Shown in pieces: positions 16,301 to 58,575 of a DNA stretch of 64,000 nucleotides (position 1 is its first letter; every line of letters starts with the position of its first letter). The translations under genes were made by a program, and so were the position numbers. Below the pieces are notes generated by a model. The model did not search any database and had not been told where the DNA came from. It saw only the letters and a program-made list of their open reading frames with translations. Origin of the DNA: Glandiceps talaboti (Eukaryota; Hemichordata; Enteropneusta; Spengelidae); assembly GCF_964340395.1 (NCBI RefSeq), contig NC_135551.1, forward strand, positions 7,951,379 to 8,015,378. Direction: 5' to 3'.

Positions 16301-19300
16301 ATTATCAGTAACTATCGTGATTGATTTTGATTTAGGCCTGTAAAAGAAAATCTCTGATTGGGTACAACCTTATTGGTAACAGAGATCTAAGTAAAATCTT
16401 ATATGATGCCAAACATTTTTACGTCAAAATTTTCAGTTTGTGTAAAATACTTAAAGCATAAAATTCTGAATTTATGGTAATGAAGGGTAATGTTTTCAAC
16501 TACACTATCTGAAAGTTACAGTAATATGAAATGACAAGCTTTTGCTGTGCACATGAAATTTTGAATTACCTTTCAATTTTTTTCCTCACCTTTTTTCAGG
16601 TTTGAAGTTTTCCAAGATAACTTTGGTAACCATCTGGGAACAAGTCTTGGAAGTGTTGTCTCTTCCCTTGGCAACCAAAAATATCACTGTAGTTGGCAGT
16701 ATTGCATTTCTTCTTGGAACTGAGGGTGCCAAAGAACAAAGTAGTCGAGATAGGGAGGCCATAATGATGAGTCTAGATGGATTGAGAAAGGCAGCCAGAC
16801 TTAGCTGTACACTAGGTACTGTATAACTTTATTGCTATGAAAACAACACTTCGATTTCAGTCACACTTTCACATTTTTTCACATTTGAGCTCCTGAGAGT
16901 CATTTTGAATTCATGATTTAACATCACCTACATTACACACAATTTCAGAGAAAAAACAATTTGAACTTATGCTTAATTTGTTGTTTTTTTTACTGTGGAA
17001 TGCATCACCTCATGGGAGTCAGCAGAAATGCATATGCAATAGTTGAACAAGAATAATACATTCAATGAACAACACCATGAATGTTTATTGTTCTCTTTTT
17101 GATATTCATGTTTGCTGACTCCTATGAGGCAACATGGCCCACTACAAATACCCAAACAGGCATAAGTTCAAATTGGCGTTTCTCTGAAATCAAGTGTAAT
17201 TGTAGGTGACTGGCATTCATAAAATGACTCTCCAGAACCCAATGTTTATGAAAATGTCTCAACTTCCTGGAGTAGTGTTCCCCTTTTTAAAGAGGGAATA
17301 CTGATGTAGCTGCTAAAGATGTTTATTGCTCATGTTCGTGATTTCTCACTATGAATGTTTACATTCTAGGTGTACAAGACAGATGTGCTAGTGTTCTAAG
17401 TCAGTTGGCTAGTGCATCGTGTGTGTATGCTGATCCTACAGTACAGACAACAGACCCTAAGAAACAGTCATTAAGGAGTCGCCTAGCAACAGCCAGTAAG
17501 ACAGGAGTCAGATTACATACATCCCATGTACTCAGTATGGATGGCTTACTAAATATGGGATTAGAGATAGGTAGTCATTCAGAGGAGAGTTGGAAACATG
17601 TGTTCAGGTAAGATTGTTATGACTTCAGTATGGGATATTGTTGTACATACATATTCTTGGTATTTGCACTGCAGTACAGCACTGAAAACATTGTTGCATA
17701 CCTATATGCAAATGAGTGTGAGAAAGTTGCAACTTGGTACAGCTTGGTACAGTTTCAACTTCAACATGGTACATGGAATCGTGAACCCTCATTTTACCAA
17801 ATTTACAGTTTCGGATAAATGTATGCAATGATAACGGAACCCCATGACAAACAAGTGCCAGTGAGTCTTATGACTCGTGCTTGCAGTCTTTCCTTTCGCA
17901 CTTTCTCACTTGTTTTGCTAGAGAAAGTACATGTATGGTCACAGCAAACACCATAAGTACTCCTGCAGATATCCTTAGTGTACAAGACTGGCATTCTCAG
18001 TTCAAAAGGCTTTTACCTACCTGCATTAGTTCCTGCACAAGACCACTATACAAAGTAAACCAGTGTGTTAATTAAGATAGAGTACACCACACTGTCACTC
18101 ATGGCGCAGAAAGATTTTACCTACCCTCCCTCCTTCCTCAGTTCCTGCACAAACCAAAATGCAAAGTAAAACAGTGTGCTAACATAGAGTACGACATGGT
18201 CACTCACAGTTAAGGAAGGTTTACCTATTACCATCTCTCTCATTCCTGCACAAAACCACCAAATAAAGTAAGGTATGCTAACACATCTGTATTATGTTGT
18301 TTCATTTCAGATGTTGTGCCTATGTATCACAGCTAGAACATTCACACTTCAGTAGTGGTAACACACAGCCTACAGTCAGCATAACTAAAGTACAGGAACA
18401 ACAACAGAGTGACAGTCCGGGTTTGTACGATGATAACACAGGTGATCTAGATATGATGAGTACATACTCACAGCCTATATCTACACCTATACAACAAGCT
18501 GTTAATATACATGATATTATACAACAGAACAATGAAGAGATGGGATTTGATATGACATTGACTAGAGGTGGAGTACTCAGTGTTTCCAATGCTGCTAAAA
18601 CGGTGTATGGATTGTCAGCTGATGTGGACAGGTTAGTTTGACAGTGTGTCTTAGGTGTTGTGTTACAGGTTAGTCTGACGTTTGTTAGGGTTGTGGTATA
18701 GGTGAATTTGACTGTTAGGGGTTGTGTTGTAGGTGAGTTTGACTGTTAGGGGTTGTGTTCTAGGTGTGTTTGACAGTGTGTGTTAGGGGTTGTGTTATAG
18801 GTTAGTCTGACAGTGTGTGTTAGGGGTTGCGTTTCAAATTAATTTGAGTGAGTGGCCAATGCTGATAAAACGGAATAGATTGTGGACAGGTTAGTTTGAC
18901 AGTGTGTATTAGGTGTTATGGGTTAGCTTGAGATAGTGTGGCAAGGGCTTTGTAATAAGTGTTGCCAATGTTCCTAAAACGGTGCAAAAATTACTGATAT
19001 TTGAACCTTTGAATATTGGTATTCAGAAACTCATTAGTGGCAATTCTACATAGATCTACAAAATGTACACTGGTGAGATATGCCTCCTGAATTTGATTTC
19101 AAGGAACTAGTGTCTGAAAATAGAAATGAGAGGCAATTGTAGAATATTTGACTTACTGTGTTGTAAAGGATGGATTGTGGTTTGTACACATCACAGTCAT
19201 TACTACATGACACTGAACATATCTAAGTGTTTTCTAGACATGACAAGTAGAACGTAATGAAGACCTCCACACTGTGGAGCATTACATGTGATGAGGATTG

Positions 19301-22300
19301 GCAACCTCGGTAACAGAAAGGGGGAAAGGGTTAAAAAAGGCAGTGTAATGGTAATTTTGTTTGGGAACCACGGTAAAATGAGATGGAAACTCAGATAGCC
19401 ATTACATACTTACCGCCCTTAGTAAAAACACTATTCATAAAGTCTTTTGCATTGTAATCTTGTCATTTCTTGATAACATGTAGACTTCATACAGTGTCCT
19501 ATAATGTCCTCTTTTCATTTTTCATCTGTAGACTATTTGAAGAGGCTGCATCCAATCTCAATCTACAAGCCTTAGTTTGTTTTCTACGTGAACTGTGCAA
19601 GGCATCTCAGACCCAGCTGTTTGATACAAATAGATTCAATGCTGACATCACACTCAGCAATCCCACAATGCCAAGTAAATCTATATCCACAGCTGGTAAA
19701 CTAAGTCATGTGACATCACTACATTTATTCCGTGTAGCTGATGTCATGTTAAAGTGTGTACGTGATGACAACAGACCATTATTACATATCATGCAAGCCT
19801 GGGGAGTTGTTGCACCACACTTTGTTGAGGTAAGTATCTTCATTACTAGAGTCAGCTTTGCCAGTGCCTTCCAATGGTTGACAGATTGCTGTTGACGAAA
19901 GTGGCACAAGCTGAGTTTATTCCCTTTTTGCTCAATTGAAAAAAAAGGAAAAGAGAAAAAGTATATTCATATAAAATCTTGAAACCTCAACCTACTATAA
20001 TGCTAATGTCGATGAGCATTGTTTCAATAACATTACAATTGTCTTCTGGCTTTGTTAGAACAGTTGATTGCATTTGTAGGCATTTCGTCAACATTTTATT
20101 AGATGTATAGGTTATGTCATCTTGTATTTTACAAGTCATATCCTAATTCCAACTTTGAGTTTAGTCAATTTACACAAGTGATGGTTAAGTATGCTTCAGT
20201 TAGCAGAATACTGTGGGCACCTTGCAGTATATATTACACACAAAAACCCCCTATGTTAACTCAGCTTGTGTGCCTTGAGTCATCACTGGTATATGTATGC
20301 TAATTCCGGCATTCATCCAGTTATCATTTATTCATGAATACTCAATATCAGCCAGGCATTTGCAATATTATCCAATCTCTTGATTTTCACAAACACCATT
20401 TCGCTAATCACACAAAATTTCAAGATTTTACTTTATTTGAAAATTTATTTAAAAGATCACTTAAACTTTTGATTCTAGATAACCATGTAAATAATAACTG
20501 ACTTTACCAGACATATTTTGTACCACAAATCACACAGAAGTGCTGATGTGACCTTTGAACTTTATTGACCTTTGACCTTGCAGGCTGCCTGTCACAAGGA
20601 AAGACAAGTATCCAAGAAAGCAGTGGCGGCAATCCATGATGTCCTGACTGAATTGTTATCTAGTAAAACTGAATTACCTCATTTCAACTTCCATGAATCT
20701 TTATTCAAACCATTGGAAAGTATGTTATGTCTTGAACTGTGTGATGACGATGTACAAGATCAGGTACTTATCGATTTCATTGAGATTATTACTATGTACA
20801 TGTATTTATTATGTTACCCGGGTAGTTGAGCTTTCGGTTTTCTAAGATAGACACAAACTAAAACTATTGTCACAACATGTTGATACAACAATGCTAAGCT
20901 ATTGAATGGACGTGGGTTTAATTATAGTCTCAGTAGGGAGGCGGCTCTGAAAACTAGTTTATTTAGAGTTCCATGAACTTGAAGTGCTGTTTTGTGACTT
21001 CCAATGTTTACACTATGTTGATCACAGGGTGATTAAAATTGCACAACAGAGGAACCGCTAGCATCATTTGTGTAATCTACCACATTGAAGAGCAATAGAT
21101 TTAGTTTGTGTCTATCTTAGTAAACCGAAGGCTGGATTACCAGTGTCATAAGTTGATTGTGCTACAAATGACTGTGTTCACTTTCATCGATTTCATGGAA
21201 ATGGTCACGTATTAAAGCAGTCCTAGGATCATTTCCCATTCATTTTAGTTTCATATTATTTGTGTTTGTATTTTAATCTCCTTACTGTCATGTTAATTGT
21301 TAATACATGTCTCTTCTTTTAACATTTTACTTGTTTTATCTTATCAATGTTTTATTCAGTTCTTTCCAATCATTAGTTGTCATGTTTATTCAGTTCTTTT
21401 AATGAGTACATGTGGAAAGCCAATTACCAATGCATTTGTGAAAATCTATTTGTTAATTCAACTAACTTGGCTACGAATAACAATAACCTTGCTACAAATA
21501 ACTAACTTTGCTACAAATAACAATAACCTTGCTACAAATAACTAACTTTGCTACAGATAACTAACTTTGCTACAGATAACAATAACTTTGCTATAAATAA
21601 ATAACTTTTGCTACAAATAACAATAACTTTGCTACAAATAATAACTTTGCAACAAATAACAATAACTGCTACAAATAACAGTAACATTGCTACAAATGAC
21701 AATAACTTTTGCTACAAATAATAACTTTGCTACAAATAACAGTAACTTTGCTACAAATGACTACATTTTGCTACAAATAATAACTTTGCTACAAATAACA
21801 GTAACTTTGCTACAAATGACAATAAATTTTGCTGCAAATAATAAGTTTGCTACAAATAACAATAACTTTGCTACAAATAATAACTTTGCTACAAATAACA
21901 GTAACTTTGCTACAAACAACAATAAGTTTGCTACAAGTCTACAATTGTGTTCATTTCATGTAGATTGTGTCTTCCATCTGTGAGTTGGTAGAGGCTTCAT
22001 CATGTAACATAAAGTCAGGATGGAGGCCATTGTTTGGTACACTGAGGGCAGTCAAGGCACATAAACAGAAGATAAATGATGATGAAAGATTACAACAACA
22101 TACAGCACCAGTATTTGATGTCTTTGAAGCTTTCTTGAATACAGACAATGTTTTTGTCTTTGCCAATGCAGCCATTGACTGCGTACTGTGTCTTCTCAAG
22201 TTTGTCAGAGGTCCAGGTAAGTTGAATACAGACAATGTATTTGTCAGAGGTCCAGGTAAGTTGAATACAGACAAGGTATTTGTTAGAGGTCCAGGTAAGC

Positions 22301-25300
22301 TGAATACAGACAGTGTATTTGTCAGAGGTCCAGGTAAGCTGAATACAGACAGTGTATTTGTCAGAGGACCAGGTAAGCTGAATACAGACAATGTATTTGT
22401 CAGAGGTCCAGGTAAGCTGAATACAAACAGTGTATTTGTCAGAGGTCCAGGTAAGCTGAATACAGACAATGTGTTTGTCAGAGGTCCAGGTAAGCTGAAT
22501 ACAGACAGTGTATTTGTCAGAGGTCCAGGTAAGCTGAATACAGACAATGTTTTTGTCAGAGGTCCAGGTAAGCTGAATACAGACAATGTATTTGTTAGAG
22601 GTCCAGGTAAGTTGAATACAGACAGTGTATTTGTCAGAGGTCCAGGTAAGCTGAATACAGACGGTGTATTTGTCAGAGGGCCAGGTAACCTGAATACAGA
22701 CAATGTATTTGTCTTTGCCAATGCAGCTATTGACTGTAGACTCTTCCTTCTCAAGTTTGTCATCACTGGTCCAGGATAATTGATGCTGTTGTGTAGATAT
22801 TCAAGTGTTCTCTAAGTGATACAAGCGTACCAGTGTATATGGAGACCTTTGTGAGTGAGCGTTCTCTTGAATATTAGCCCTACATCTTGTAAGAGAGTAG
22901 CAGTACTTTAAGTCTTGCAAATATTAACTCTGTGTTAACAAATTTAGAATCTTTAGTTTGAATGTCCAGAAGTGCATTCTAGACATCTCTCAAATCAGAA
23001 ATGAATTTTTATGGCATAAACATATGTTATTGTAATTGTTTCTATAGGTGAGTGTGAATTAATCTCTGCAGAAGATGACGATGGTGGTAACAGTGATTCA
23101 AGTTCTACAGCGGCATCAGATCATTCCCTTCCACTACAAGCTGTAGATCTATGTCTTCCAGCTTTAGACTATCTCCATCGTTGTCACAAGATCCTTGCCT
23201 CTATATACAGTATGCCAGTATGTCCTGTATTCCATGGTGCACAGTCCATACAACTAAACACAGCGTTACTGACGGCTGAATTAGACATATCACCTGGTAG
23301 GGAGTTCTCCGGTAGCGTACCAACGATTCTACAAGATGCCAAGTTAGCAAGAACACAGGATTCATTTGATGACGACGCCGCTGCTGCTGCTGCTGCTGCT
23401 GCTGCTAAGGAAGCTGAACTGTTGGCTGCCGTGTCTATTGATAGCATAGATGATGAGAGTGGCATCATCAGAGTCTGGTTTCTGTTGTTGGAAGGATTAA
23501 CTGGTGCTGTGTCAACATGTCCTAGGAATTACCAACCACAGACTTTGGAATTGTTGTTTGAGTTGCTGAGAGCAATTGCAGCTATTCCAGGTATGAATAA
23601 TGTAATGTACACACTTTGAGAAAAATCTGATAATAACGAATACAAAGACCCTTTAACTCCTTGCTGATAATGATATAGACCATGTAGTTCCTTGTTGATA
23701 ATAATGTAAACCCTCTAACTCCTTAGCTGATAATAATGTAAACCCTCTAACTCCTTAGCTGATAATAATGTAAACCCTCTAACTCCTTAGCTGATAATAA
23801 TGTAAACCCTCTAACTCCTTGTTGATAATAATGTAAACCCTCTAACTCCTTAGCTGATAATAATGTAAACTCTCTAACTCCTTAGCTGATAATAATGTAA
23901 ACCCTCTAACTCCTTAGCTGATAATAATGTAAACCCTCTAACTCCTTGTTGATAATAATGTAAACCCTCTAACTCCTTAGCTGATAATAATGTAAACTCT
24001 CTAACTCCTTAGCTGATAATAATGTAAACCCTCTAACTCCTTGTTGATAATAATGTAAACCCTCTAAGTCATTGTTGATAATGATATAGACCCTTTAACT
24101 CTTGTTGATAATAATGTACACCCTCTAACTTATTGTTGATAATAATGTACACCCTCTAACTTATTGTTGATAATAATGTACACCCTCTAACTTATTGTTG
24201 ATAATAATGTACACCCTCTAACTTATTGTTGATAATAATGTACACCCTCTAACTTATTGTTGATAATATTAATAATGTAGACCCTCTAACTCCTTGTTGT
24301 AGTGCAACAGAAATGCTGTAACACAATGCTAACTTTCAACCCTCTGAAAACCATATAAATTGCACTGTAGTGTATGAAAGATGTGATCTATTGCAAAGCA
24401 CATTACCTTGTTCTATCGTATGAGAAATGAAACTATGATTGTAGTTTCTGGACCCCATAGAACACTCACACAACTTAAGTGGCATCCTTCAGATAATAAT
24501 ATCACTCAATCTCACATTCTACCATTGACACTTTTCAGGACCTCAGTTTGCAGTGTTTGCAGTGACCAACCTCCTACTACCAATGTTGTTATCGTGGGTT
24601 CGTAGAAGTACACGTACTAGTTACTGGGATACCTCATTGGCTAACTTTAAACACGCATGTGGCCTGTCAGCTGAATTGGTAGTAGATCATGTGGTCTATT
24701 TTGTAACCAGTGACATCATCATCCCAGGTGTACATCGCATGATAAAACAACTGTTTGATTTGTTAGTGGAATGTATCGGTCAACCAATGGAATCTATCTC
24801 AAGATTAGGGTGTTCTTGTATCAGGTAAGTGTATTGGTTAAACACTACAATCCCAGGTGTTCATTGGCTGGTAGACAGTCCATGTATTGGTTAAACACTA
24901 TAATCCCAGGTGTTCATTGGCTGGTAGACAGTCCATGTATTGGTTAAACACTACAATCCCAGGTGTTCATTGGCTGGTAGACAGTCCATGTATTGGTTTG
25001 ACACTATAATCCCAGGTGTTCATTGGCTGGTAGACAGTCCATGTATTGGTTAAACACTATAATCCCAGGTGTTCATTGGCTGGTAGACAGTCCATGTATT
25101 GGTTAAACACTATAATCCCAGGTGTTCATTGGCTGGTAGACAGTCCATGTATTGGTTAAACACTACAATCCCAGGTGTTCATTGGCTGGTAGACAGTCCA
25201 TGTATTGGTTAAACACTACAATCCCAGGTGTTCATTGGCTGGTAGACAGTCCATGTATTGGTTAGACACTACAATCCCAGGTGTTCATTAGATGATATTT

Positions 25301-29000: not shown

Positions 29001-31370
29001 TTTGTGCAATTTTTCATAACAGTAGATTTTTGTCATAAAATGGTGACTATGGTATAAAAGTACAATACATTACCAACTTTTGTGTAAAATGTGTTTTATA
29101 GTGAGACATCATATGAAACCACTAACCACTTTATTGCATCGCTAAAACAAAACTGCATAGTGAAGAGCTGAAGACCTGAACCACTTCTACATGTCACCAA
29201 AATAAAAAATTAAATTAAAAAAAAAACAGCGGAGCTATTCTGACCGATAGGTCGCTTGTATTTTTGTTGTAGGTGTTCCTCTTGGACTCTCAGTTTACAG
29301 CCAGTGATAACGACAATGATTCTGATGATAATAGGTCCTATATATTTATAATGTACCCACCTGATACAGATGCAACAAGTGTTAACATCGACCTCATTAA
29401 AACTAGGTAAGTAACCCCCTGATAAAGAGGCATCAAGCGTTAACATTGACCTCTCAAAACTAGGTAAGTAACCCCCTGGTACAGATGCATCAAGTCTTAA
29501 TATAGACCTCATTAAAACTAGGTAAGTAACCCCCTGATACACATGTATCAAGTGTTAACATTGACCTCATTAAAACTAGGTAAGTAACCCCCTGATACAC
29601 ATGCCGCAAGTGCTAATATAGACCTCATCAAAACTAGGTATGTATACTACCAGTGCACATAAAATTGATCACACCAAACCAGAGTAATTATCCCCCTGTT
29701 AGTTATGTATTGTCATCAACTGTATACAATACAAGTGTAATCTCACTATTGTAACATGCTGAATGCCCAACCCCATAAGAATTGCCTTGTTGTCACATGA
29801 TCAAACGTTGATGTCTAACTGCTTTTTTTCCTGTAGGATCCCATTTCGTCACATTGTGGTAGGTTTAATGGCCAACCAGATACTACTACAGACATTGGGT
29901 ACTGTACTCCTGTATGGTGCAGAACACAAAACCAGTAACGAGAAAGGCATCATCTCAGACAGTGCAGTTCAGTCTAACTTACAACGCCAAGAATCCATGA
30001 GTTCCATCGACGGGCCACAGACTCTTCTACCGGGACTTCTATCGTACCTGTCTAGCAAGAATCTGTCTCTTCTACTGGAGTGTTTTATAGAGTCCTATAG
30101 GACAGCCTGTGACTTTGACGTCAGACCAGGTCTGAAATTCCTGCTACAGAAAGTAGCCAAGTTAAGTGTTGCTGTAAATATGTATCGGCAGACGGCGCTA
30201 AGTTTTACGTTTTATCTCCATACCTTGTTAGAGATATGTCACCATGCAAAGGAGGACAGTCTGGCTGCAGAGACGGTGAAAAAAGCCGTCACATTGGGGA
30301 TCTCTAGCCTACATGGCCAGCATAGGAAAGAAGTACTGAAACATAAAGAAAGTAATGAGAGAGTTGAGACGAGTGAAAATGGTTGTCATAGCGACAGGGA
30401 AACGATGGGAGATTTGAGGAAAATTGAGGAAGATGATGGATTGGGAAAAGAGAAGTTTAGAAGTTCATCCGTTTCTAGTTTAGGGAGTGTAGATTCAGAA
30501 GGTCGATATAAGACAACGAGTGAGCTGTCCTTCCCACCAGCACTGTCTTTCCATCCGGAAGACGAAGATGACTTTATTTGGGTTGTGAAACGGTTGCTAG
30601 GCATCTGCTATGATGTATGCTCACTCTACATCCAACTACACTTAGATAAAGATGAAGATTTCATAGATACAGAGCGTATAGCTGAACAACCACTGTTCCT
30701 TCTGGTGGCACCACTCAGTCCCGATGAACCAAGTCACAAAGGGAAAAAGTTATTCAGCTTCCCACCACTTGAGAAACAAGTCAGTAAAGAACTTATTGAC
30801 CCGCAAGAGGTCAAAGGTCAAAGGACACAGTGGTCGCCCAAAATCAAAGCTGAAGACACAAGTAGGTTGGAGAAAGCTTTCAACATCAAAAAAGACGAAA
30901 GGAAGTTAGAAAAGAAGAATAGCAGAGAGGAAGGAAAGTTGTACACCGTGGCGACGAATAAAACTATTAAGAGTCTGATGCACGAATACAAGAAAAGAAA
31001 GTTACACCATTCAAGGTCGACCTTCGTTAAGAAACCAACATTCAAAGAAAAGAAGGTCGCTTTACAGCAGATGAAGAAACAAAACAAAGCTAGCACACCT
31101 GAAGAACAGAAAAGACAACAGGAGATCCAAAAACAGCAGGAGAGTTCGATTATGAGAGATAGTGAGGCACATATGAAGGCCTGGACAGACATGATATTGT
31201 CAATGTTACAGCTTTTACAGTTGCTACCAGATAGACAATTTAATTGTCTTCTTCCAGCTACTTTCCCTGCTGTCAATCAGCTGGTATGTCACGTCACTGA
31301 CACTGTAGTTAGGGAAGCTGTTATGGAATTCATGGAAAGGGTAGCCAGGAATCATGGAATTATCCCATAG
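1017..31370 (+). CDS. ARFGEF3: ARFGEF3 (BIG3) orthologue, 3' portion, 22 coding exons
   Basis: This is a large cytosolic scaffold related to the BIG Arf-GEFs. Vertebrate BIG3 is known to restrain insulin and glucagon granule biogenesis and to bind prohibitin-2. Exons: 1017-1104, 1561-1632, 6222-6338, 6795-7113, 7583-7695, 8593-8777, 9503-10258, 11438-11467, 13923-14116, 14963-15128, 15985-16098, 16600-16815, 17370-17607, 18311-18631, 19532-19829, 20584-20763, 21964-22216, 23048-23590, 24539-24824, 25757-25985, 29273-29406, 29837-31370. All have AG/GT borders and compatible phases, giving 6,386 nt of coding sequence (about 2,128 codons). Order and motifs follow remembered human ARFGEF3, for example LCDDVV, VSDHGRGSGCS, LLYPPPQHR, SLDGLRKAARLSC, PVFDVFEAFLNTDN, YKKRK and the CHVTD C-terminus. 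Roughly the first 190 residues lie upstream of the window. The Sec7 region is degenerate. Exon limits were read by eye. Confidence 0.93.
1561..1632 (+). CDS. ARFGEF3: ARFGEF3 exon 2 in window
   Basis: A 72-bp exon between CTCCAG and CAG|GTATAT, phase 2 on both sides. It reads SDNDKFEEVLCRLASDSF then LRSVSDR. Human ARFGEF3 as I remember it has no clear counterpart, so this may be an extra, skippable 24-residue cassette. It is supported by an open frame, matching phase and good splice sites rather than by homology. Confidence 0.65.
1633..4143. other. Intron with two local tandem duplications
   Basis: No exon seen. A ~75-bp unit around ACCATGGTGATGG repeats two to three times at about 1655-1806. 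A ~180-bp unit with the words catgaaactaaaatatata and catgtttatacaa repeats twice at about 3295-3625. A CTCF-like motif CCACTAGAGGGCACTA lies on the minus strand at 1837-1852. Confidence 0.5.
4144..6060. mobile_element. PIF/Harbinger-like non-autonomous DNA transposon, 1.9 kb
   Basis: Both ends carry an inverted repeat of about 50 bp beginning GGGAAGAAGTCCATTTCAAG at the left and ending CTTGAAATGGACCTCTTCCC at the right. It includes GC-rich words such as GCGGTTCCCGCGGGA. It is flanked by direct TAA copies at 4141-4143 and 6061-6063, matching the TWA target duplication of PIF/Harbinger elements. No transposase motif was found in the short open frames inside, so it is probably a non-autonomous member. 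It lies in the intron just before exon 3. Confidence 0.82.
6222..6338 (+). CDS. ARFGEF3: ARFGEF3 exon 3 in window
   Basis: It lies between TTGCACAG and TG|GTGAG. It reads WTGPQSQQLMGLYLECVLVI then LSSSSTDL, closely matching human SQQLQLLYLECILSVLSSSS. It contributes to the helical N-terminal DCB/HUS-type region. It begins 161 bp after the end of the 1.9-kb Harbinger-like element. Confidence 0.9.
6350..6404. repeat. (AT)n microsatellite
   Basis: An almost pure AT dinucleotide tract of about 55 bp, 12 bp after the exon 3 donor. Confidence 0.95.
6445..6660. repeat. ~95-bp tandem duplication with ATF-like and octamer motifs
   Basis: Two near-identical units contain GTCATCAGGTGATCACATGA, two TGACATCA words and ATATGCAAAT. 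TGACATCA resembles an ATF/CRE half-turn variant and ATGCAAAT is the POU octamer. Binding is inference only. Confidence 0.7.
6795..7113 (+). CDS. ARFGEF3: ARFGEF3 exon 4 in window
   Basis: It carries two of the most diagnostic BIG3 motifs, GVSDHGRGSGCSATAPS and FLLYPPPQHRYEALKAVKE (human GVSDHGRGSGCSCTAPA and VLLYPPPQHRVEAIKIMKE). It also carries LCPTLISILGNP. Acceptor TTACAG, donor GAG|GTGAGA, ending in phase 0. Confidence 0.95.
7195..7380. repeat. (GAT)n compound microsatellite
   Basis: A GAT/GAC trinucleotide tract with interruptions in the intron after exon 4. It produces long Met-, His- and Ser-rich open frames that are not genes. Confidence 0.95.
7583..7695 (+). CDS. ARFGEF3: ARFGEF3 exon 5 in window
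   Basis: Acceptor TTGATAG, donor CT|GTAAGT. It encodes VFSTPQGVLDMAGPPLYDTK ending in SRNSDLDLLKL. The human counterpart is GSPQRLCDLAGPSS ending in SHLDLLKL. Phase 0 start, phase 2 end. Confidence 0.88.
8010..8551. mobile_element. MITE with ~37-bp terminal inverted repeats and internal tandem copies
   Basis: The left end reads agtgttcttgctaagggtgg and continues taagtaggtaaaatct. The right end is its complement (agattttacctacttaccgcc, then cttaaataaaacact). Inside, an ~80-bp piece of the left end repeats about four times. Shorter relatives occur at about 19296-19432 and 33954-34107. Target duplication not clear. Family unknown to me. Confidence 0.7.
8593..8777 (+). CDS. ARFGEF3: ARFGEF3 exon 6 in window
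   Basis: It reads LLDGIVESSHSNEGIVCHTS, then VACVVALLTALEDISQGK. The human counterpart ends in SCVCTLLGALDELSQGKGLS. Acceptor TTTAG, donor CAAG|GTGAG. It starts 41 bp after the terminal inverted repeat of the MITE at 8010-8551. Confidence 0.9.
9117..9418. mobile_element. Palindromic foldback MITE, 302 bp
   Basis: Arms 9117-9230 and 9303-9418 are inverted copies with only scattered mismatches, separated by a ~72-bp loop. Ends read CCTGTTACAAACAGGGAAAG and CTTTCCCTGTGTGTAACAGG. As RNA it would form a hairpin of more than 100 bp. No coding capacity. No clear target duplication. Lies in the intron just before exon 7. Confidence 0.85.
9503..10258 (+). CDS. ARFGEF3: ARFGEF3 exon 7 in window: acidic linker and start of degenerate Sec7 region
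   Basis: A 756-bp exon. The first half is very acidic and poorly conserved (runs of E, D and K, residues about 30-60 of the exon). A likely coiled-coil stretch follows, with EAEMEKQRARRREELEAV. The end reads LLQLTDASQVDETLLRFASR, which aligns with the Sec7 motif [20 protein letters not shown] of active Arf-GEFs. The glutamic-finger block PGEA is replaced by TDAS, so exchange activity is not expected. Human BIG3 also lacks it. Confidence 0.9.
10838..11279. mobile_element. Foldback MITE, 442 bp, ~125-bp arms
   Basis: The left end gtgaaatcatctagatgtct is mirrored by the right end agacatctagacgatttcac. The arms continue through taaataaagacat, ccgggtgatcgcc and the cagatgtgg/ccacatctg words. The centre holds unrelated sequence of ~190 bp. 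No target duplication evident. Confidence 0.82.
11438..11467 (+). CDS. ARFGEF3: ARFGEF3 exon 8: 30-bp microexon
   Basis: A 30-bp exon between AATCAACAG and CACAG|GTAAAA. It adds DGVVRSSVFT and keeps the phase (1 in, 1 out), so including or skipping it would not shift the frame. It is supported by splice signals and phase only. The human segment at this point (MMHSPGFDGNSS) is weakly similar. It lies in the loop of the degenerate Sec7 region. Confidence 0.55.
11468..13922. other. Long intron (exons 8-9) with one small foldback
   Basis: 2.4 kb with no exon recognised. It holds the inverted repeat at 12384-12557. The rest is AT-rich without evident repeats. The open frame at 13201-13503 has no recognisable family and no matching phase, so it is not called. 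Confidence 0.5.
12384..12557. mobile_element. Small foldback element
   Basis: Left arm ttcattttacaccaaaaagt through gctcaccaaagttttcacca to catcatggctt. Right arm is its complement (aagccatgatctatacctgg to ttggtgcaaaaatgaag). The left arm has ~10 extra bases. About 174 bp in total. Confidence 0.7.
13923..14116 (+). CDS. ARFGEF3: ARFGEF3 exon 9: second half of degenerate Sec7 domain
   Basis: It contains ILNADGIYVATYYALLLNLK, matching human MNADSLYTAAHCALLLNLKL and the Sec7 helix ADTAYVLAYSIIMLNTDL. Acceptor TTTCACAG, donor GAG|GTTAG, ending in phase 0. A lysine/serine-rich loop (EAKRRKVSLDKDASSTGS) precedes the Sec7 helix. Confidence 0.93.
14432..14560. mobile_element. Short MITE, ~130 bp, family member 1
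   Basis: Inverted ends atgttattccccaatatgtt and aaaattttggaaaataacat, followed inward by ttcattcagcca / tggctgaatgaa. The same family occurs at 36603-36770 and its duplicate 51682-51850, with conserved interior words (gagt..gacttaaggggcc, agtcgatagac). Confidence 0.72.
14963..15128 (+). CDS. ARFGEF3: ARFGEF3 exon 10
   Basis: It encodes KEFVRKIHDGVFLVYLSSTW, then LSELYNQVITRNLIGEAGY, then LMTLLTD. Human has KEFMKQVQTSGVLMVFSQAW and NMLGEAGYWGSP. Acceptor TTTTTGCAG, donor CAG|GTTAGT. Confidence 0.93.
15290..15578. repeat. ~37-bp minisatellite, about 8 units
   Basis: The unit reads GATAGATTACAGGCCTGGGT followed by GATAGGGTGTGCAGTGT, with a few variant units. It lies in the intron between exons 10 and 11. 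Confidence 0.9.
15985..16098 (+). CDS. ARFGEF3: ARFGEF3 exon 11
   Basis: It encodes DIDGLGNRDIGGQMLRESTC, matching human DIDGLESSAIGGQLMASAAT. Acceptor GATTCAG, donor CTG|GTAAGT. Confidence 0.9.
16100..16380. repeat. Degenerate array starting at the exon 11 donor
   Basis: Diverged units of roughly 60 bp share (a)gtaagac and tctctgattggttg. They start within a few bases of the donor GGTAAGTAAG. The units are too divergent to fix a consensus. Confidence 0.5.
16600..16815 (+). CDS. ARFGEF3: ARFGEF3 exon 12
   Basis: It contains SIAFLLGTEGAKEQSS and MMSLDGLRKAARLSCTLG, near-identical to human LAFILGAEGIKEQNQ and CMSLDGLRKAARLSCALG. Acceptor TTTTTTCAG, donor CTAG|GTACTG. Confidence 0.95.
16887..17240. 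mobile_element. Foldback MITE, ~354 bp, ~145-bp arms
   Basis: Left words gagagtcattttgaattc, cacctaca, atttcagagaaa, caatttgaacttatgc and ctcatgggagtcagca all return as complements on the right (tgctgactcctatgag, gcataagttcaaattg, tttctctgaaat, tgtaggtg, aaaatgactctcc). No coding capacity. Confidence 0.82.
17370..17607 (+). CDS. ARFGEF3: ARFGEF3 exon 13
   Basis: It reads GVQDRCASVLSQLASASCVY, then TGVRLHTSHVLSMDGLLNMG, LEIGSHSEESWKHVF. Human has GVWLHTAHVLCMEAILSVGL and EMGSHNPDCWPHVFRVCEYV. It begins 130 bp after the foldback MITE at 16887-17240. Confidence 0.95.
17985..18285. repeat. ~105-bp degenerate tandem repeat, three units
   Basis: Units share ttacctacc, ttcctgcacaa.acca, aaagtaaa.cagtgtg.taa and catggtcactca. 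The array ends about 25 bp before the acceptor of exon 14. Confidence 0.7.
18311..18631 (+). CDS. ARFGEF3: ARFGEF3 exon 14
   Basis: It reads RCCAYVSQLEHSHFSSG (human RVCEYVGTLEHNHFSDG), then a Gln/Ser-rich linker, then GGVLSVSNAAKTVYGLSADV (human GGSLMSGSSAAKVVLTLSTQ). The last ~55 nt and the donor are copied in degraded form downstream in the intron. Confidence 0.93.
18575..18990. repeat. Array derived from the 3' end and donor of exon 14
   Basis: The exon end gccaatgctgataaaacgg and gtggacaggttagtttgaca, together with the following tgtgt.ttaggtgtt, recur at about 18850-18925. A more decayed copy (ttgccaatgttcctaaaacg) lies at 18961. Between them a ~45-bp unit gttaggggttgtgtt.taggt repeats about five times. 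Confidence 0.75.
19296..19432. mobile_element. Fragment of the 8010-8551 MITE family
   Basis: It shares cggtaacagaaagggggaaa, the ggtaaaatgag block and the terminal cttaccgcccttagtaaaaa with the larger copy at 8010-8551. It lies in the intron between exons 14 and 15. Confidence 0.65.
19532..19829 (+). CDS. ARFGEF3: ARFGEF3 exon 15
   Basis: It reads LFEEAASNLNLQALVCFLRE, then LHLFRVADVMLKCV, then PLLHIMQAWGVVAPHFVE. Human has RLFEDATDKLNLMALGGFLY and PLLHVMRCWSLVAPHLVEAA. Phase 0 end. Confidence 0.95.
20584..20763 (+). CDS. ARFGEF3: ARFGEF3 exon 16
   Basis: It reads AACHKERQVSKKAVAAIHDV, then LCDDDVQDQ. Human has AACHKERHVSQKAVSFIHDI and ELCDEDVQDQ. A 180-bp phase 0 exon, acceptor CTTGCAG, donor CAG|GTACTT. 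Confidence 0.95.
20829..21133. mobile_element. MITE with ~40-bp inverted ends, 305 bp
   Basis: The left end agctttcggttttctaagat continues agacacaaactaaaactattg. The right end carries the complement caatagatttagtttgtgtc followed by tatcttagtaaaccgaaggct. It lies in the intron between exons 16 and 17. Target duplication not resolved. Confidence 0.8.
21465..21946. repeat. TTTGCTACAAATAACAATAA-type minisatellite
   Basis: About 20-25 units of 18-22 bp (ctacaaataacaataacttt and variants with cagtaac or gacaat). It stops 18 bp before the acceptor of exon 17, so the branch point of that intron probably falls at or inside the array edge. Confidence 0.92.
21964..22216 (+). CDS. ARFGEF3: ARFGEF3 exon 17, hemmed in by two minisatellites
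   Basis: It reads IVSSICELVEASSCNIKSGW, then APVFDVFEAFLNTDNVFVFA, then LLKFVRGPG. Human has SIGELVEVCSTQIQSGWRPL and APVFDVFEAFLNTDNIQVFA. The acceptor is 18 bp after a TTTGCTACAAATAA-type array. The donor CCAG|GTAAG opens a 39-bp in-frame array that repeats the exon end and the donor, so the true 3' limit may vary between transcripts. Confidence 0.93.
22137..22776 (+). repeat. 39-bp in-frame minisatellite that repeats the exon 17 end and its splice donor
   Basis: The exon end (AATACAGACAATGTTTTTGT to GGTCCAG) and donor GTAAG are repeated as a 39-bp unit. After the genuine donor there are 11 more GGTCCAGGTAAG or near-identical copies and one GTAAC variant. A last, longer partial copy of the exon (22694-22776) ends in GGATAA, with no GT donor. 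The unit is 13 codons, all open, encoding KLNTDNVFVRGPG with N/S/K/G variation. Every donor sits in the same codon phase. Confidence 0.93.
23048..23590 (+). CDS. ARFGEF3: ARFGEF3 exon 18, with polyalanine run
   Basis: A 543-bp exon with LCLPALDYLHRCHKILASIY (human LCLPALDYLRRCSQLLAKIY) and a run of ten alanines after DDD, mostly GCT codons at about 23378-23407. It then has RVWFLLLEGLTGAVSTCPRN (human EVWIILLEQLTAAVSNCPRQ) and LELLFELLRAIAAIPG. The GCT tract is a candidate length polymorphism inside an acidic, poorly conserved linker. Confidence 0.94.
23625..24300. repeat. ~32-bp minisatellite, about 20 units
   Basis: The unit is CTCTAACTCCTTAGCTGATA followed by ATAATGTAAACC, with sub-variants (CTTGTTGATA, ACACCC...CTTATTG). 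It starts about 35 bp after the donor of exon 18. Confidence 0.95.
24539..24824 (+). CDS. ARFGEF3: ARFGEF3 exon 19
   Basis: It contains SYWDTSLANFKHACGLSAEL and SRLGCSCIR. Human has SYWDMASANFKHAIGLSCEL and SRVGCSCIRYVLVTAGPVFT. Acceptor CTTTTCAG, donor ATCAG|GTAAGT. A 53-bp minisatellite starts right after the GTAAG. Confidence 0.95.
24826..25290. repeat. 53-bp minisatellite abutting the exon 19 donor
   Basis: The unit TGTATTGGTTAAACACTATA continues ATCCCAGGTGTTCATTGGCT and GGTAGACAGTCCA. It repeats about 8 times, nearly identically, beginning right after the donor GTAAG. The unit's ATCCCAGGTGT also occurs inside exon 19. Confidence 0.95.
25757..25985 (+). CDS. ARFGEF3: ARFGEF3 exon 20
   Basis: It reads HVLLRAGPVFTDDMWTIACH (human YVLVTAGPVFTEEMWRLACC), then a segment ending in EADRLRQIAQQ (human EYWRIRAMAQQ). 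Donor CAG|GTTAGT, followed at once by a C-run and a long A-run. Confidence 0.94.
25994..26430. repeat. C-run/A-run tract with inverted flank
   Basis: A run of C then a long A-run starts 9 bp after the exon 20 donor. The words agaattgtttctgatcag (26078) and ctgatcagaaacagttcttt (26406) are inverted copies, each next to an A/T run, suggesting an A-rich foldback insertion. Lys-rich and Phe-rich open frames here come from the tract. Confidence 0.6.
26925..29259. mobile_element. Helentron/HINE-like element, copy A (2.3 kb)
   Basis: About 600 bp at the left and 570 bp at the right match copy B (48,089-50,986). The cores differ completely. A 12-bp inverted pair TAGCTCCGCTGT / ACAGCGGAGCTA lies at the left end and near the right end. 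The right one is followed by a small hairpin GACC-GATA-GGTC and a short tail GCTTGT. A left hairpin TCAGC-GAAA-GCTGA follows the left inverted motif. Subterminal inverted repeats, a 3' terminal hairpin and no clear target duplication fit non-autonomous Helentrons. No Rep/helicase was seen, so family placement is inference. It ends 13 bp before exon 21. Confidence 0.62.
28216..28768. repeat. Inverted repeat inside Helentron-like copy A
   Basis: Left arm gtattaatcgcc through ggtaacatcg (28216-28302) is complementary, with mismatches, to the right arm at about 28670-28768 (gttaccactgtaacgtacgg through ggcgattaatac). The right arm runs into the part shared with copy B. It may be a separate MITE or an internal foldback. 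Confidence 0.6.
29273..29406 (+). CDS. ARFGEF3: ARFGEF3 exon 21, directly downstream of a Helentron-like element
   Basis: It reads VFLLDSQFTASDNDNDSDDN, then a hydrophobic SYIFIMYPPDTD and SVNIDLIKTR. Human has VFMLDTQCSPKTPNN and CQLIIELPPDEKPNG. The acceptor TTGTTGTAG lies 13 bp after the end of a mobile element. The 3' end plus donor (CTAG|GTAAGTAA) is repeated about four more times in the intron. Confidence 0.9.
29357..29643 (+). repeat. ~58-bp array derived from the 3' end and donor of exon 21
   Basis: The exon end (gatgcaacaagtgttaacat..cctcattaaaactag) and donor GTAAGTAACCCCCTGATA repeat with donors at 29407, 29464, 29522, 29580 and a GTATGT at 29638. Reading past the first donor meets TAA at once, so use of later donors would add a premature stop. 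Confidence 0.9.
29837..31370 (+). CDS. ARFGEF3: ARFGEF3 last coding exon with stop
   Basis: A 1,534-bp exon read from the acceptor CCTGTAG. Conserved blocks are FRHIVVGLMANQILLQTLGT, CFIESYRTACDFDVRPGLKF, WVVKRLLGICYDVCSLYIQL, KLYTVATNKTIKSLMHEYKK and the C-terminal PAVNQLVCHVTDTVVREAVM, followed by a GIIP-type end before TAG at 31368-31370. A Lys/Glu/Gln-rich, coiled-coil-like linker lies between them (about 30,730-31,150). The human protein ends similarly (CISQLTCHVTDIRVRQAVRE, then YDIIV). Confidence 0.96.
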
Positions 31371-31870
31371 ATGCTTCAAGCCTGACTTTCCTGTAAGAGT
31401 GGTTAGGGAAGCTTTCTGGAAGTTTGTGGAAAGGGGAGCAAGGAATTACAAAATTATTCCATAAATGCTTAGTTCCAGACTGTCCTTAAAGAGTACTTAG
31501 GAAATATGTTATGGAATTTATGGCAAGAGTAACCAGGAATTATGGAATTTATGGAAAGGGTAGCCAGGAATTATGGAATTAGATTTGTCCATTCATGGTT
31601 TTCAATCATTGGTATGAGTAGCAGTGGGAAAGTTTAGGGAAAAGAAAGCCAGGAATCATGGAATTATCCCACAAATGCTTCATTCCTGACTATCTTTCTA
31701 GAGTAGTTATGGAAACTGTGATGGATTTTATGGAAATTTAGCCAGGAATCATGGAATTATCCCACAAATGCTTCATTCCTGACTATCTTTCCAGAGTAAT
31801 TTAATGGAAACTGTGATGGAGTTTATGGAAAATAGTAGCCAGGAATCATGGAATTAACCCACAAAGTGAA
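31300..31870 (+). repeat. ~100-bp degenerate array spanning the ARFGEF3 stop codon
   Basis: The end of the coding sequence (gttatggaattcatggaaag..gtagccaggaatcatggaat, tatcccatagatgcttcaag, cctgactttcc) recurs about four to five times in the 3' untranslated region, each time more changed. The original unit holds the C-terminal codons and the TAG stop. Confidence 0.82.
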
Positions 31871-34800: not shown

Positions 34801-36602
34801 GCAATCTGTCAGTAGTTTTAAAAAGTGTACACAATGATAGATCTTTCATTCTAGTAACACCCAGGGTACCACAGGGTGTCACCGTAAACTTGTGCAATAT
34901 CACCATACACCAAAGATTTACACCTGTCCAGTTAAAGAAATAATCATTAAGGGTACAACTTAACAGAATACAAATGTTTTGATTAAGCTTATAAAACCAA
35001 AAAGAAATTCTTAAAAGTTACATTGGCATACATGCACAATTGTTCTAGAAATTTTCAGAAAATATAAACTGGTTTATATCTGTGTATGGTGTTCCCTTAC
35101 TTTTAAGACACATGCCAAACTTTGGACTTTAAGATTGGGTAACAAGTGTAGGAGTGAAAATTTCAGTCATGTCCAGGACGGAGGGTATGACCTTAAGTCA
35201 CCATTACTCAAATGTACATTAAAGCTGCACTGGCTGTCAATGGGGTATTATTTTTTCGATCAGAAAACAAACAATATATCCACTGTAAATTGTTAAAATA
35301 CCAACAATTAGACATTGTATATGTCAAATGGATGTCTATTTTATATATAAGTAGTATAGTAATAAAGATGACATTGTGATTCATTGGGATGCTGAATTTT
35401 GGGTACAGACACACAAATCAGTGTGGTTTAATATATCGCACCACTGGGTATTTGTGTACTATGGGCCATACTATATTGTACTGCTACACAAATATGTACA
35501 CCCACAGTGGAATAAACAAAGCTAATGGTGAACAGTATTAAGACTAAGTCATTATATCTAAGCAAACAGTTTCAAAATATGTTTCATTTACAGCCTGTGC
35601 ATTTTTAATATTTTAGTTTCACTGCCTTATTTCTGTATATATACAGGAAAGACTCTGATTTACAGGATTTCCAAAAATTATGATACCAGTCAAGTATACA
35701 ACTCAAGTGGAATTCGAAGGAATGTATTATGTAAAAGTTTGAAGAACTACTTGTCCTATATTATTCTCATGTCATTATTCATTTCTTTGACATAATATGA
35801 CATTACTCAATGACTTGTGAGTGTAAGTGTGGCATACTCTAGGTATTTGCGCAAATGGTTGTAGTATAGTGTTCCCAGCAGCCATACTTACTGCCTGTAA
35901 AGTGCAGCAGAAAGCACTGCAAGTAGAAGTGCAAACACCCCAGAGTACATACCCACATTGGAACTCACATAGAATGAGGGTCAGTTGTTATTGCATATGT
36001 CTATCCAAGATAGCAAATTTCTGTACAAATTATACTTTGAAATGACATGCTTTCATGTACGAACAATTGTGCCTACATTTGCACATTACTTGCATGCAAG
36101 TATGCCATAATGTTTCTTGTATTGCACTATAGTGCAAATACCACTAATACCCATGCAAGTAATCTCTGGTACCTATTGTAATAATATACTCTACAGGTTG
36201 ATGTCCTACTAGGACGGTAAAGTGTCACTTTGTGGAGTTCTATCTTTATCTGGACACTCTCTGTGACATCAAGGCTTTAAATTGAAACAAATTTGATATG
36301 CCAGACCATTATCTAACTGTGCCCTTTCTGATTTGTTTTATGATGTATGTGTATATTTCTGATGGTTAAAATCTTAACTGTGTTGTTTTATTTGGCTGAA
36401 AGATTCTCTCCGTTGTATTTACCTTGGTGAGTCATGTAATATAGTTTGTTTAGAACTACATTTTATGTTGTATAGAGAAATAAATCAGTAAATAGATATA
36501 CAAATACTACATTTGTCTTCTGATTATTCACTTTCTACTTAGCATGTTTATAGCTCCAACTGTCTATGATAACTATTGTATATTTAGTGTTATTACGAGG
36601 GA
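31371..36602. other. ARFGEF3 3' UTR and intergenic region up to UNC93A
   Basis: After the decaying array there are AATAAA words at about 32,699 and 33,727 that could serve as polyadenylation signals; the real 3' end is not known. A ~52-bp unit (gatggttgccatagcaaaca..actatattg) repeats three times at 32,745-32,850. A short GGCGCC-rich repeat lies at 33,065-33,190. An imperfect ~120-bp duplication (tttctgat..aca..tggaa.caggg) lies at 34,370-34,560. No gene recognised. Confidence 0.5.
33800..34211. mobile_element. Foldback MITE with a second MITE in its loop
   Basis: Left arm ggttgccaagggacaccaaa through catcatgggtcttagcagac to attattcatgaga. Right arm is the complement (tctataaatattcatgtcta, gacccatgatgcaatggtgt, ccaaattg/caatttgg, ttggcaacca). 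The ~150-bp loop at 33954-34107 is a copy of the 8010-8551 MITE family, so it inserted into the older element. Confidence 0.75.
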
Positions 36603-36770
36603 TAATTACATATTATTCCTTAATATGTCTTCGTCCAGCCAAGGGAAATATGAGTAGTGACTTAAGGGGCCATGTCATTGTAAGTCGATAGATGACCAAA
36701 AACAAAACAGTTCCATCATGAGTATTTTCTGGCTGAATGAAGAAAAATATTGGGGAATAATATAATTATA
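36603..36770. mobile_element. MITE of the 14432-14560 family, in UNC93A 3' flank (copy 1)
   Basis: Ends taattacatattattcctta and tattggggaataatataatt are inverted copies. The interior shares gacttaaggggcc and agtcgatagat with the copy at 14432-14560. It lies 130 bp downstream of the UNC93A stop on the gene's strand, probably inside the 3' UTR. Confidence 0.7.
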
Positions 36771-36896
36771 CCTCCTCAAGCATATCTTATGAAAATGGGG
36801 GAAAAAATAGTGGCAATTTGGAACATTTTGACTCATATTTCGAGGAGTCAGAACCAGTGACGTAGACAGTTAAATAGAAGTTTCCATGTTCATGAT

Positions 36897-37132
36897 TTAG
36901 TTCTCTGATTTGACTTTCACGTGACCTTTCGTCACTTCTTGGTGATGTTTGAATTCTAAGATAAAGTATGATATAAATGCCAAAATTGAAATGATAATCA
37001 AAATTGAAATCTTGATGTAAACACATAGAAATAGACTTAAAGCAAACCCTATAGAAAACCCTGCTGCAGTCCAAAGGATCTTATTGGCAAAGGCAGCTTC
37101 CTTCATGTTTGGAAAGACCAATGCGTGCATAG
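36897..37132 (-). CDS. UNC93A: UNC93A copy 1, exon 3 with stop
   Basis: From acceptor CTTCCAG. It encodes MHALVFPNMKEAAFANKILW, then two membrane spans, then a charged tail ending KVKSEN. Human has KSKEAAFANYRLWEALGF. Confidence 0.92.
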
Positions 37133-40100
37133 CTGGAAGGAAAGAGGGAAAAAAAGAGAGTATTATACATTTTTTGAATAGATACTGACTTGTGGAAAAA
37201 GTGGAACATGCTTTTGCATCTATTTACATATGTAGTGTCAAACAGGCACTCCTAGCCCATATTATGTATTCCCACTATCACTTTCAGATTGATGTATAAA
37301 TGCAATTTTCGATTATTGTACGTAAAAGGCGTATGAGTATACTTCCCTACTTAATTAACGATCAATTTGACTTTTAATGGTGATACCAAAAGTTAGCTAC
37401 TTACTTGCGGACTCTAGCATAACAATGCTGTCAGCAGCTCCACTTAAAACTGCGATTAGGAAAAACAGTGCCAATGTCAAGGTATTATCTTCAGGTTCCA
37501 TAACCAATAACAGGATGTAGCAGGAAAGTAGACACGTGAATGCAACCACCATCATGATGACTCGTCCTGATGTATTAGCCATCTTACTTGCTAGAACTTG
37601 AACAAGCATACTTGTAGTACCATAACACATAAAGATATATCCAACCATATCCACACCGATGGCACATGAAATGTAAGACTAGCAAAATTAAAAAACAACA
37701 ACAAGAAGGTAGTTACACTTTATGTAATAGTATGTGGTATGTGATGAATCGAGGAAGTGTGGTCAAAGGAATAAACCCCTTTACAATCTCGCCGCCATCT
37801 TGATTTCCAAATATGCAATGTGCAGGGTCAAAAGTTTTAAATCTGCAGTCAATACCTGTACAAAATGAACGGTCGACTGTCTGTCCAGATCTATCCACAA
37901 ATCATCTATATTTTGTGTTTGGAAATTAGTATGGTTCTTTCTAGTATCTAAGAGTCAATTGTCTCGGCAAGTGTATCCTGTAAATGTAGCTTTTGATTTT
38001 AATGAATCATTTGCATAACCAATGATTTTAGTAAAAGTTGTACAGAATGTACGATTCAAATTTCATGTAATTCTGTACATATATATTGGCAAAGTGTGCA
38101 AGTCCTATAAACATTGCTAATGATATTGATACGATATTTGCATGATAAAGGATATTGGGAATAGGGAACTTGCAATCCAGACTGAGCATGCTCAGACACA
38201 AAGGACTGTGGCATTATCTGTGGTTATCGTAATATTTTATCCAGAGCTACCGATGTAATAAACCTCCCACACTGGTCAGGGTAAATATGAATTGCTCATT
38301 GGTGGTTATAAACAATGTAACAAAATTGTTTACAATACCAATTGATTAGTATTTATTATCACATTTCCCATGATGCAACATTCAACATGGCGGGTTTGCA
38401 AGTTCCCTATTGGCCTTTAACATTCATATAATTTTGTGCAAAAATAATGTCCACGACATAATTACTTAGTTTTAAACACAAAGACAAACATACCCAATGA
38501 CAGACAGACACAAGATTATAATCTACTCAGCTTTACTGACCCCATTCAGATTACATCATTGCCATGACAACAAGCTTAAGAGGGATGAGTAAACAATTTG
38601 ATAAGCATTCAAAAAACAGACGTAAACTCAATGTCTCAGGATCCAGTAAGGGGAAAACAATATATTTTTTGTCCCGGAATGCAAAATCCCGTGCTATAGC
38701 CATCATACACAATGTAGGGGCGAAATTAATAGTTTAAAGTAGGATAAAAAAAAACTAATTTCATTTAGTTAGACCTCAGATCCCCCCACCCCCACCCCCT
38801 TCTAACGAAAGTTTTTTAAAAATTTTCCTTACAACTTGGCACTAATACGCTTCCGTACGATACAGCTTGATTGTGAACTACTTAATATTTACGTACGATA
38901 CTCTGCATAGACCCTTTTGTGTAGGGTCAATGGTGAAATTGGGTGTGCACGGTGTAGTTGTTGAGCAAGTTATAAGAAGCTCGCTTGTTTGCATTGCCAC
39001 GTCACATCACTTGTCAAAGGAGGTCACCTTCGACTCCGGGTTTAACCACCCGCTTTCTACCGAAAATCTTAAACCGACCTTGCCTATTTCTAACTACATG
39101 TATAACCTTTTAAAAGTACACAAGAATCCATCTATTTTATAAAAAATTGTAAATTTTGGGCGAAGCAACAAAATGGGAGAAAAACCGAGCCGAAATTTAC
39201 GACCTCAGCGGGTTCAAGTATTCTTCACGAAATCGCCGAAAAATCACAGTATTCCTATCAATAATTCCAAAGTCGATTCTTCTAGCACGGAGGGAGAAAT
39301 ATCAGTCGAGATTTTCACTTTTATAGTATCCAATATGATGAATTATTGTGAAAGTTACGACGAGTTGAAAATGCCCCTAAATACGGCTGGTTAGCTCTGA
39401 GCCGGCCACCATTGTAAACGTACCACGTCGCGTCCACGATCGAAGTAATAAGCCAGGGTAAGCTTTCACAGTTGTTTTACCCATCATGCTTTGCACCCTT
39501 TCCCCCCTCCTCTGACGATCCTTGAAATAATTGGCCAGCGTCCAAGTCAGGCCCGGCGTACGTAATACTTATTACAGGTTAGTTATGATTCACTGGTCAT
39601 TTCGACCACAAATTCGAACCGCGAAGTGAAATGTAGCCAATTTCAGTAGTTCGAGAGCTATTTTTAGTGTAAGGCTATTCAATATGCAAATGAAGTAATT
39701 CCTATAAGTATAAGTAAACTCAGAGCCCAGACGAGTGGACTTTGCTTGGTCCCCCGGCGTTGTCCACCCTTTAGGTAGTTCGTCGGATGGCAGAGATATA
39801 GAGAGATAATTTTCCCCTATCTACTTCAACCAGTTTAACAATCCTGATCTGTTAAACTTTACTCGAAGAAAATAAAGTCAAATGTATTATTTAAGATATT
39901 CTTCTCCAGCGTATTTTCTGTTCTGGTGATCTTTGGGTCGTTAACCCCATACCATAGACTCCCCGATTCCTGAATTATCGAACTGGTGAGACATCGGAAG
40001 AAGACCACATCGACAACGCTACAACCAAAGACAACGTTCAACTTTATTTGGTTGGTGCGGGCCGAAGTTCGATCAACGGAAGTCAGTTACCACATGGTGC

Positions 40101-41620: not shown

Positions 41621-41884
41621 GTTGGTTGATGTTTTAGCCACACTGTCCAGACAACTATTTTAATACACCCACTATACTTGATACCGCCTTTCGGAGGGTA
41701 CAAAGCACGGATAGGTAAAGGCCAGGTCAGGTCACGCATGTAGGTCAGGCTATTGTCATGGCCATCCCAGCATACCCATTCGCAGCGATATCCCATAATC
41801 TATCACTGCCATGATTATTTGGCCAGTCTACTCCTTAAACCACATGTGGAAGTGATCATTTGCTTCAAATTTACTTTCAGATGA

Positions 41885-42340
41885 AAATCATGTAAAACTT
41901 TTTTCACTAGGTACGGCCGTCTGATTAAGGGATAGTTTATAAAGTTTATAACGTTTAGAACGATATTTAGATCGGATAATTAGTGGATATATCCTTGTAA
42001 AACTGTTTTCTTCACCAGCGACAGCCTGTCTAAATAGCCGATAGTTTATAAAGTTTAGAACGATATTTAGATCGGACAATGATCAGATATATTCTTGTAA
42101 AACGTTTTTTTTTCACTACGAACTAATTAATATATAGTTTATAAAGTTGAAAAATATTAGAACGATATTTAGATCGGATAATTATCGGATATATCCTTGT
42201 AAAAAAATGTTTTCACTATGATAGTCTAATTAGCGGATAGGTTATAAAGTTTAAAACGATATTTAGGTCGGTTAATTAGCGGATATATCCCTGTTTATAC
42301 TTGTAAAACCTTTTTTTTCCACTACGACTGGTCTATTATA
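41885..42340. repeat. ~105-bp tandem array upstream of UNC93A, copy 1
   Basis: Four units share gatagtttataaagtttaga, acgatatttagatcggataa, ggatatatccttgtaaaac and tttttcacta. A single decayed unit lies at 47,575-47,650. It sits between the UNC93A 5' end and the LINE. Confidence 0.9.
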
Positions 42341-42575
42341 AATTTAAGCAATAAACCACCCCCTGGGGATGGTATACCAAGATGTTTTGACCAGTGAACG
42401 AAATATATTCACGAGCGATATTATATTATACTAGTATATTGAAAATATCGGAAACAAGATAAGAACTATATATATGCAAATGTCAGCAGATGAGTAACAA
42501 CGCGTTACGCATAGCTCCGTAAAAAACATCAAATACTACCAATGTAAACATCAACCCGACCTCAAGAACAGCAGC

Positions 42576-43457: not shown

Positions 43458-43522
43458 GAGTAAATACTGGATATAACATTTATTGTTTTTTCTTTGGTAA
43501 TGTATTTTTCTCCATTTAGTAG

Positions 43523-58510: not shown

Positions 58511-58575
58511 GAGTCAATACTGGATATAACATTTATTGTTTTTTCTTTGGTAATGTATTTTTCTCCATTTAGTAG

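Follow-up and report, generated by a model that had tools for sequence, protein, structure and literature searches.

The 64-kb stretch of genomic DNA analysed here (64,000 nucleotides, referred to as the window) occupies C4:7951379-8015378 in a 590-Mb genome of 47 contigs and carries an ARFGEF3-like gene in which one exon is followed directly on its 3' side by a tandem array of 39-bp units, each copying the exon tail together with the splice donor. The exons of this gene joined across the window encode 2112 residues and match the Pfam families Sec7-like_HDS (4.4e-13) and BIG2_C (2e-11), which upholds the assignment to the ARFGEF3 family made in a first-pass annotation of the same DNA. A match to Sec7-like_HUS at 0.0048 lies below the cut-off of that family, and the Pfam search reported no Sec7 domain in the joined exons. 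ARFGEF3 is not known to have a working Sec7 domain, and the predicted product fits a BIG3/ARFGEF3-like protein. Taken alone, the exon stretch 21964-22215 adjoining the array matches Sec7-like_HDS with E=7.7e-6; a search of solved structures with the exon region gave a single, uninformative match (E=0.37), and no Rfam family was found at gathering score in the 64-kb window.

The +1 G of the successive donors lies at 22217+39k for k=0 to 12 (a slash marks the splice junction below), which gives 13 donors, twelve of them reading CAG/GTAAG and the thirteenth, at 22685, CAG/GTAAC. Tandem Repeats Finder (TRF) delimits the array at 22201-22713, with a period of 39, 13.2 copies, 93% matches, 0% indels and a score of 893, so that the periodicity is far beyond chance as a repeat. 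These positions and the TRF call bear out the dozen donors and the GTAAC variant of the earlier annotation, and its statements on the frame also hold: the 39-bp unit is 13 codons long, with the peptide consensus GKLNTDNVFVRGP, it contains no stop, all donors share a single phase, and each of the 13 joins in frame to the next exon. The array is closed, as had been noted, by an exon copy with a lost donor, the 14th copy (22775), which reads CAG/GATAA; it lies 90 bp from the preceding donor and carries a 3-bp insertion, and its dead donor GGATAA itself forms the stop codon (22777-22779) that ends the frame open from 21964. Directly after this terminal copy stands TTGATGCTG, which looks like, and is presumed to be, the original start of the intron. 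The features of the locus are collected in Table 1. Upstream, a separate 21-bp array of about 24 copies (21463-21936) stops 28 bp short of the acceptor of the exon that starts at 21964. Downstream, the beginning of the exon after the array (window 23040-23056) is itself donor-like and resembles recursive splice sites.

Table 1. Features of the exon-end arrays in the ARFGEF3-like gene (window positions)
Feature	Positions	Strand	Remarks
Coding exon with amplified tail	21964..22216	+	acceptor TTTCATGTAG/ATTGTG, donor CAG/GTAAGT
Two TTTGTC direct repeats in the exon	22153..22206	+	at 22153 and 22201, 48 bp apart
First donor, GTAAGT	22217..22222	+	9/9 match to CAGGTAAGT; most likely the donor used, as we infer
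Twelve 39-bp units	22222..22689	+	each made up of the exon tail without 48 bp and of GTAAG (GTAAC in the last); donors 22256 to 22685
Terminal, fuller, diverged exon-tail copy	22690..22779	+	3-bp insertion, dead donor GGATAA
Next exon	23049..23590	+	starts TAG/GTGAGTG, acceptor TTTCTATAG; in frame with the first and every array donor
Second donor array, same gene	29353..29644	+	exon end 29406 (TAG/GTAAGT), spacing 57, 58, 58, 58 bp
Third donor array, same gene	18586..18984	+	exon end 18631 (CAG/GTTAGT), units of about 31-37 bp, donor-like sites
Coding-end duplication, no splice site	31305..31865	+	last codons and 3' flank repeated in degenerate form, unit about 94 bp

The name mirage was given to tandem repeats over exon-intron boundaries in amphioxus Adh3, and such repeats also occur in globin genes (PMC3087553; here and below, the cited papers are represented by excerpts of their text). 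The repeat unit described here likewise spans such a boundary, as exon tail plus GTAAG in 12 copies and a terminal copy, and the first copy is an open exon with a Pfam HDS match, a CAG/GTAAGT donor and an in-frame join to the next exon; splicing would be expected at the intact donor of this first copy. The array is quite probably a mirage-type minisatellite, seeded by duplication of the boundary and mostly spliced at the first donor, with the remainder leaving with the intron. To judge from the sequence, the first donor is most likely the one used and the array near-neutral intron DNA, which would be tolerated because exon and donor are preserved undamaged in the first copy; splicing at a later donor would, at this locus, only insert 13-residue units.

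The steps by which the array may have arisen can be read from its units. The word TTGA stands at the exon position where the unit starts and again at intron bases +6 to +9, and the repeated unit runs from exon base 22135 (TTGAATACAG...) through the fifth intron base (GTAAG), with TTGA at the junction to the copy that follows. This 87-bp unit minus the 48 bp between the TTTGTC words gives the 39-bp unit; on that model the first array unit has 1/39 mismatch and the other eleven have 1 to 6, the last unit having the most. An 87-bp duplication over the exon-intron boundary, joined at TTGA, would thus have come first; loss of 48 bp between the TTTGTC repeats would have left the 39-bp unit, which slippage or unequal exchange could then have expanded in a minisatellite-rich genome, while the fuller copy left at the far end diverged and its donor died. 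This order of duplication, loss and expansion is a reconstruction. The greatest divergence of the far-end unit, together with two variants alternating across units 5 to 9, gives a pattern as in tandem-repeat turnover.

Exon ends have been copied elsewhere in the same gene and in the genome. When the array at exon end 29406 is read through, a stop (TAA) is met at the first donor, and at 18631, where the array also holds diverged exon-tail copies, an in-frame TGA lies a few codons past the donor. Outside the gene, contig C1 holds a candidate exon (L035), open and with an acceptor, that is followed by at least 8 donors spaced 50 bp apart, the second of which is preceded by a stop; in another candidate exon, close to the window at C4:8050463-8050586 on the minus strand (L012 5085-5208), the end and donor are repeated 2.6 times in a 48-bp unit that is in frame and open. 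For the latter exon the matches in the PDB are weak (the best, to a WD protein, at E=0.019); other predicted coding stretches nearby on the same strand have WD and TPR matches, and the exon, which has no Pfam match, may be WDTC1-like. Five of the five AGGTAAG arrays among the matches listed were inspected, and only at L035 is there a candidate exon that is open and has an acceptor; at L032, L033, L034 and L036 no exon upstream was convincing, and these four were left out of the counts, and an 82-bp AGGTATG array at C4:8055442, without a long upstream open frame, was dropped. In the ARFGEF3-like gene a 53-bp array of 8.7 copies (24830-25289) also starts just past the exon that ends at 24824 and its GTAAG donor, with the exon not included. 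An assembly artefact, affecting either the array at 22217 as such or the number of its copies, is extremely unlikely. The array is known from a single assembly, and an aberrantly assembled mirage in a draft genome is on record (PMC3087553); its units, however, differ at several sites, it is bounded by the exon on one side and by a distinct, fuller copy on the other, its sequence has one match reported across the 590 Mb genome, and similar arrays occur elsewhere in the gene and the genome.

The open frame invites the reading that several of the 13 donors are in use, which would place 0 to 12 extra 13-residue units (KLNTDNVFVRGPG and variants) after the HDS domain, in a number that would differ between transcripts and individuals. 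The structure has what translation of the repeat would need, as 39 bp is a multiple of 3, no stop occurs until 22779 and all donors are in one phase; moreover, the match to the donor consensus CAGGTAAGT is 9/9 for donors 1, 2 and 11, 8/9 for the nine other GTAAG donors and 7/9 for GTAAC, so that all twelve GTAAG donors reach 8/9 or 9/9. The agreement of frame is, however, one fact and not twelve, because a single unit length, being a multiple of three, puts all donors in one phase. Only GTAAG is new in the unit, which otherwise consists largely of exon sequence with this frame open from the outset, and since one length sets the phase and the unit is mostly open exon, about 1 array in 3 is expected by chance to look so. 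The match of the reading frame is thus most likely a coincidence without need for selection. Among the donor arrays at exon ends, 1/3 in the ARFGEF3-like gene is open past the first donor, and 2/5 when the two candidate exons elsewhere are included, which is no excess; general selection for frame in donor arrays is not visible in so small a sample. Because the arrays at 18631, 29406 and L035 meet stops, donor copies evidently accumulate at exon ends whether translatable or not, and 3/5 of the exon-end arrays exist though they are untranslatable past the first donor. In amphioxus, mirages are reported not to interfere with the regular splicing of Adh3, globin and troponin C (PMC3087553, PMC3902484). 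Use of several donors therefore appears unlikely. In the earlier proposal of a change in coding length through donor choice, structure and phase stand, and the functional part finds little support, given the stops in other arrays and the normal splicing reported for amphioxus mirages. A stronger form, in which 13 near-equal donors set the number of 13-residue units, the size varies among individuals and amino-acid selection keeps the unit, is distinctly improbable. Polymorphism of array size is nevertheless likely for a minisatellite as such, and the length of amphioxus mirages varies between haplotypes, even somatically (PMC3087553).

Several points weigh against a mirage-type array spliced mostly at its first donor. 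The use of that donor is something we infer from the sequence, and both candidate exons outside the ARFGEF3-like gene are without an accepted Pfam match. Among the twelve units 6/10 distinct changes are synonymous (0.30 expected, P=0.05, uncorrected), an observation that also speaks for translation from several donors, though it rests on ten changes. Between the exon and the terminal copy 5/8 changes are synonymous (P=0.05); some of these changes may have occurred on the exon side, where constraint would favour synonymous ones in any case. To the same list belong the corresponding values for the 57/58-bp array, 5/13 for its intronic units against their own consensus (P=0.33) and 7/17 against the exon (P=0.17). 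In the 48-bp array 1/10 changes are synonymous. The synonymous excess is the sole sign of translation in the sequence and a weak one, with few changes and several tests. A further point is the placement of arrays, which start between -60 and +10 of the donor at 4/20 exons against 0.77 expected (P=0.004, for an interval picked post hoc), so that chance alone may not fully account for the placement; since the interval was chosen after the data had been seen, the donor bias counts as no more than a lead.

Other tests of placement gave values close to expectation. Of the first 32000 bases of the window, 4082 belong to arrays with a period of at least 15, and 3/20 donor ends lie inside an array against 2.5 expected under random shifts (P=0.50), while array ends are found near acceptors in 1/21 cases against 0.79 expected (P=0.56); in these placement tests 2/20 donor positions (6339 and 7111) carry an error of one or two bases. 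Preferential amplification of donor motifs was also considered. Genome-wide, tripled AGGTAAG was counted 8090 times against 2671 for its backward control, and tripled AGGTGAG 3141 times against 4920, the two donor types pointing in opposite ways. These counts are of overlapping matches, of which single arrays yield tens among the matches listed, and for that reason no conclusion was drawn. In the 293 kb sampled, the window's own arrays included, AGGTAAG as a single word is found 48 times and its backward control 33 times.

Mirages have been reported from cephalochordates, which concerns where they occur and is no property of the structure as such; amphioxus as the source of this genome is rejected on mitochondrial evidence. 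A mitochondrial unit of 15,435 bp with 35% C is present in head-to-tail copies in one 51-kb contig (C40) with three cox1 copies. In ten correctly framed mitochondrial genes AAA occurs 2 times, AGG 2 times and AGA 0 times, and ATA sits where, as we assume, the cox1/cox3 consensus expects Ile; the tRNA-Lys has the anticodon CTT, and nad4L adjoins nad4. A further tRNA-Lys prediction, with anticodon ttt and lying within nad5, was regarded as spurious. ATA=Ile is common to echinoderms and hemichordates, Balanoglossus has no AAA and a tRNA-Lys with CTT, and a displaced nad4L marks echinoderms (PMC2697986, PMC3121625), so that the mitochondrial features probably indicate an enteropneust hemichordate. 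The position of cob, here between atp6 and cox3, does not fit this placement, as nd5 and cob are adjacent in the two hemichordates compared (PMC2697986, PMC3121625). A search of the genome for the GFP (green fluorescent protein) family gave no match, which says little, since the control genomes gave none either. It is also worth noting that a 9.1-kb segment of the window is duplicated (36345-45479 and 51424-60531, 98.8% identity); judged by eye, it seems to contain a minus-strand gene resembling those for membrane transporters, together with part of an element resembling a long interspersed nuclear element (LINE).

Coding minisatellites, known from variable number tandem repeat (VNTR) proteins, repeat whole codons, a property common to them and to the array described here, in which translation would hinge on the donor used. 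Tandem copying of a segment with a splice site is also seen in ATP2A1, in fission-yeast 24-bp AGGT repeats and in potato RdRp (PMC4974935); in those cases a new intron arises from the duplicated sites, whereas here the copies appear inside an existing one. It has been proposed that mirages give rise to new introns (PMC3087553), and a model for such gain, laid out in PMC3087553 and PMC4974935, would have repeated AG/GT sites recruited as a new donor-acceptor pair, part of the array becoming a separate intron or exon. CAG/GT is present in every unit, as this would require, but the terminal copy is without a donor and splicing inside the array would be hypothetical, and intron gain under way at this locus is very improbable. 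In the literature searched, which lacked most subscription papers, no report of such arrays outside cephalochordates was found; an earthworm paper (PMC12783039) concerns, in its excerpts, repeats inside an intron.

The closest likeness is to the amphioxus mirages of Adh3, the globins BflGb6 and BflGb9 and troponin C and to the duplications of PGBD5, the troponin C and PGBD5 cases having been added by PMC3902484; there as here an exon-intron boundary is duplicated, many copies keep the AG/GT signals, and the exonic part of the copies lies within the intron. The reported units measure 10-72 bp in Adh3 and 150-160 bp in the globins, the one described here 39 bp. Allele length variation and splicing have been studied in the amphioxus mirages, from which the present array differs in its probable enteropneust hemichordate host, its 12 GTAAG donors and its frame-keeping unit. 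These 12 donors, near-identical, equally phased and harmless to the frame, offer a natural test of 5' splice site choice, for which the 57/58-bp array of the same gene, with its stop on reading past the first donor, is a built-in control. The array probably belongs to the mirage kind already described, and with three donor arrays in one gene it would extend exon-boundary minisatellites from amphioxus to a probable hemichordate.

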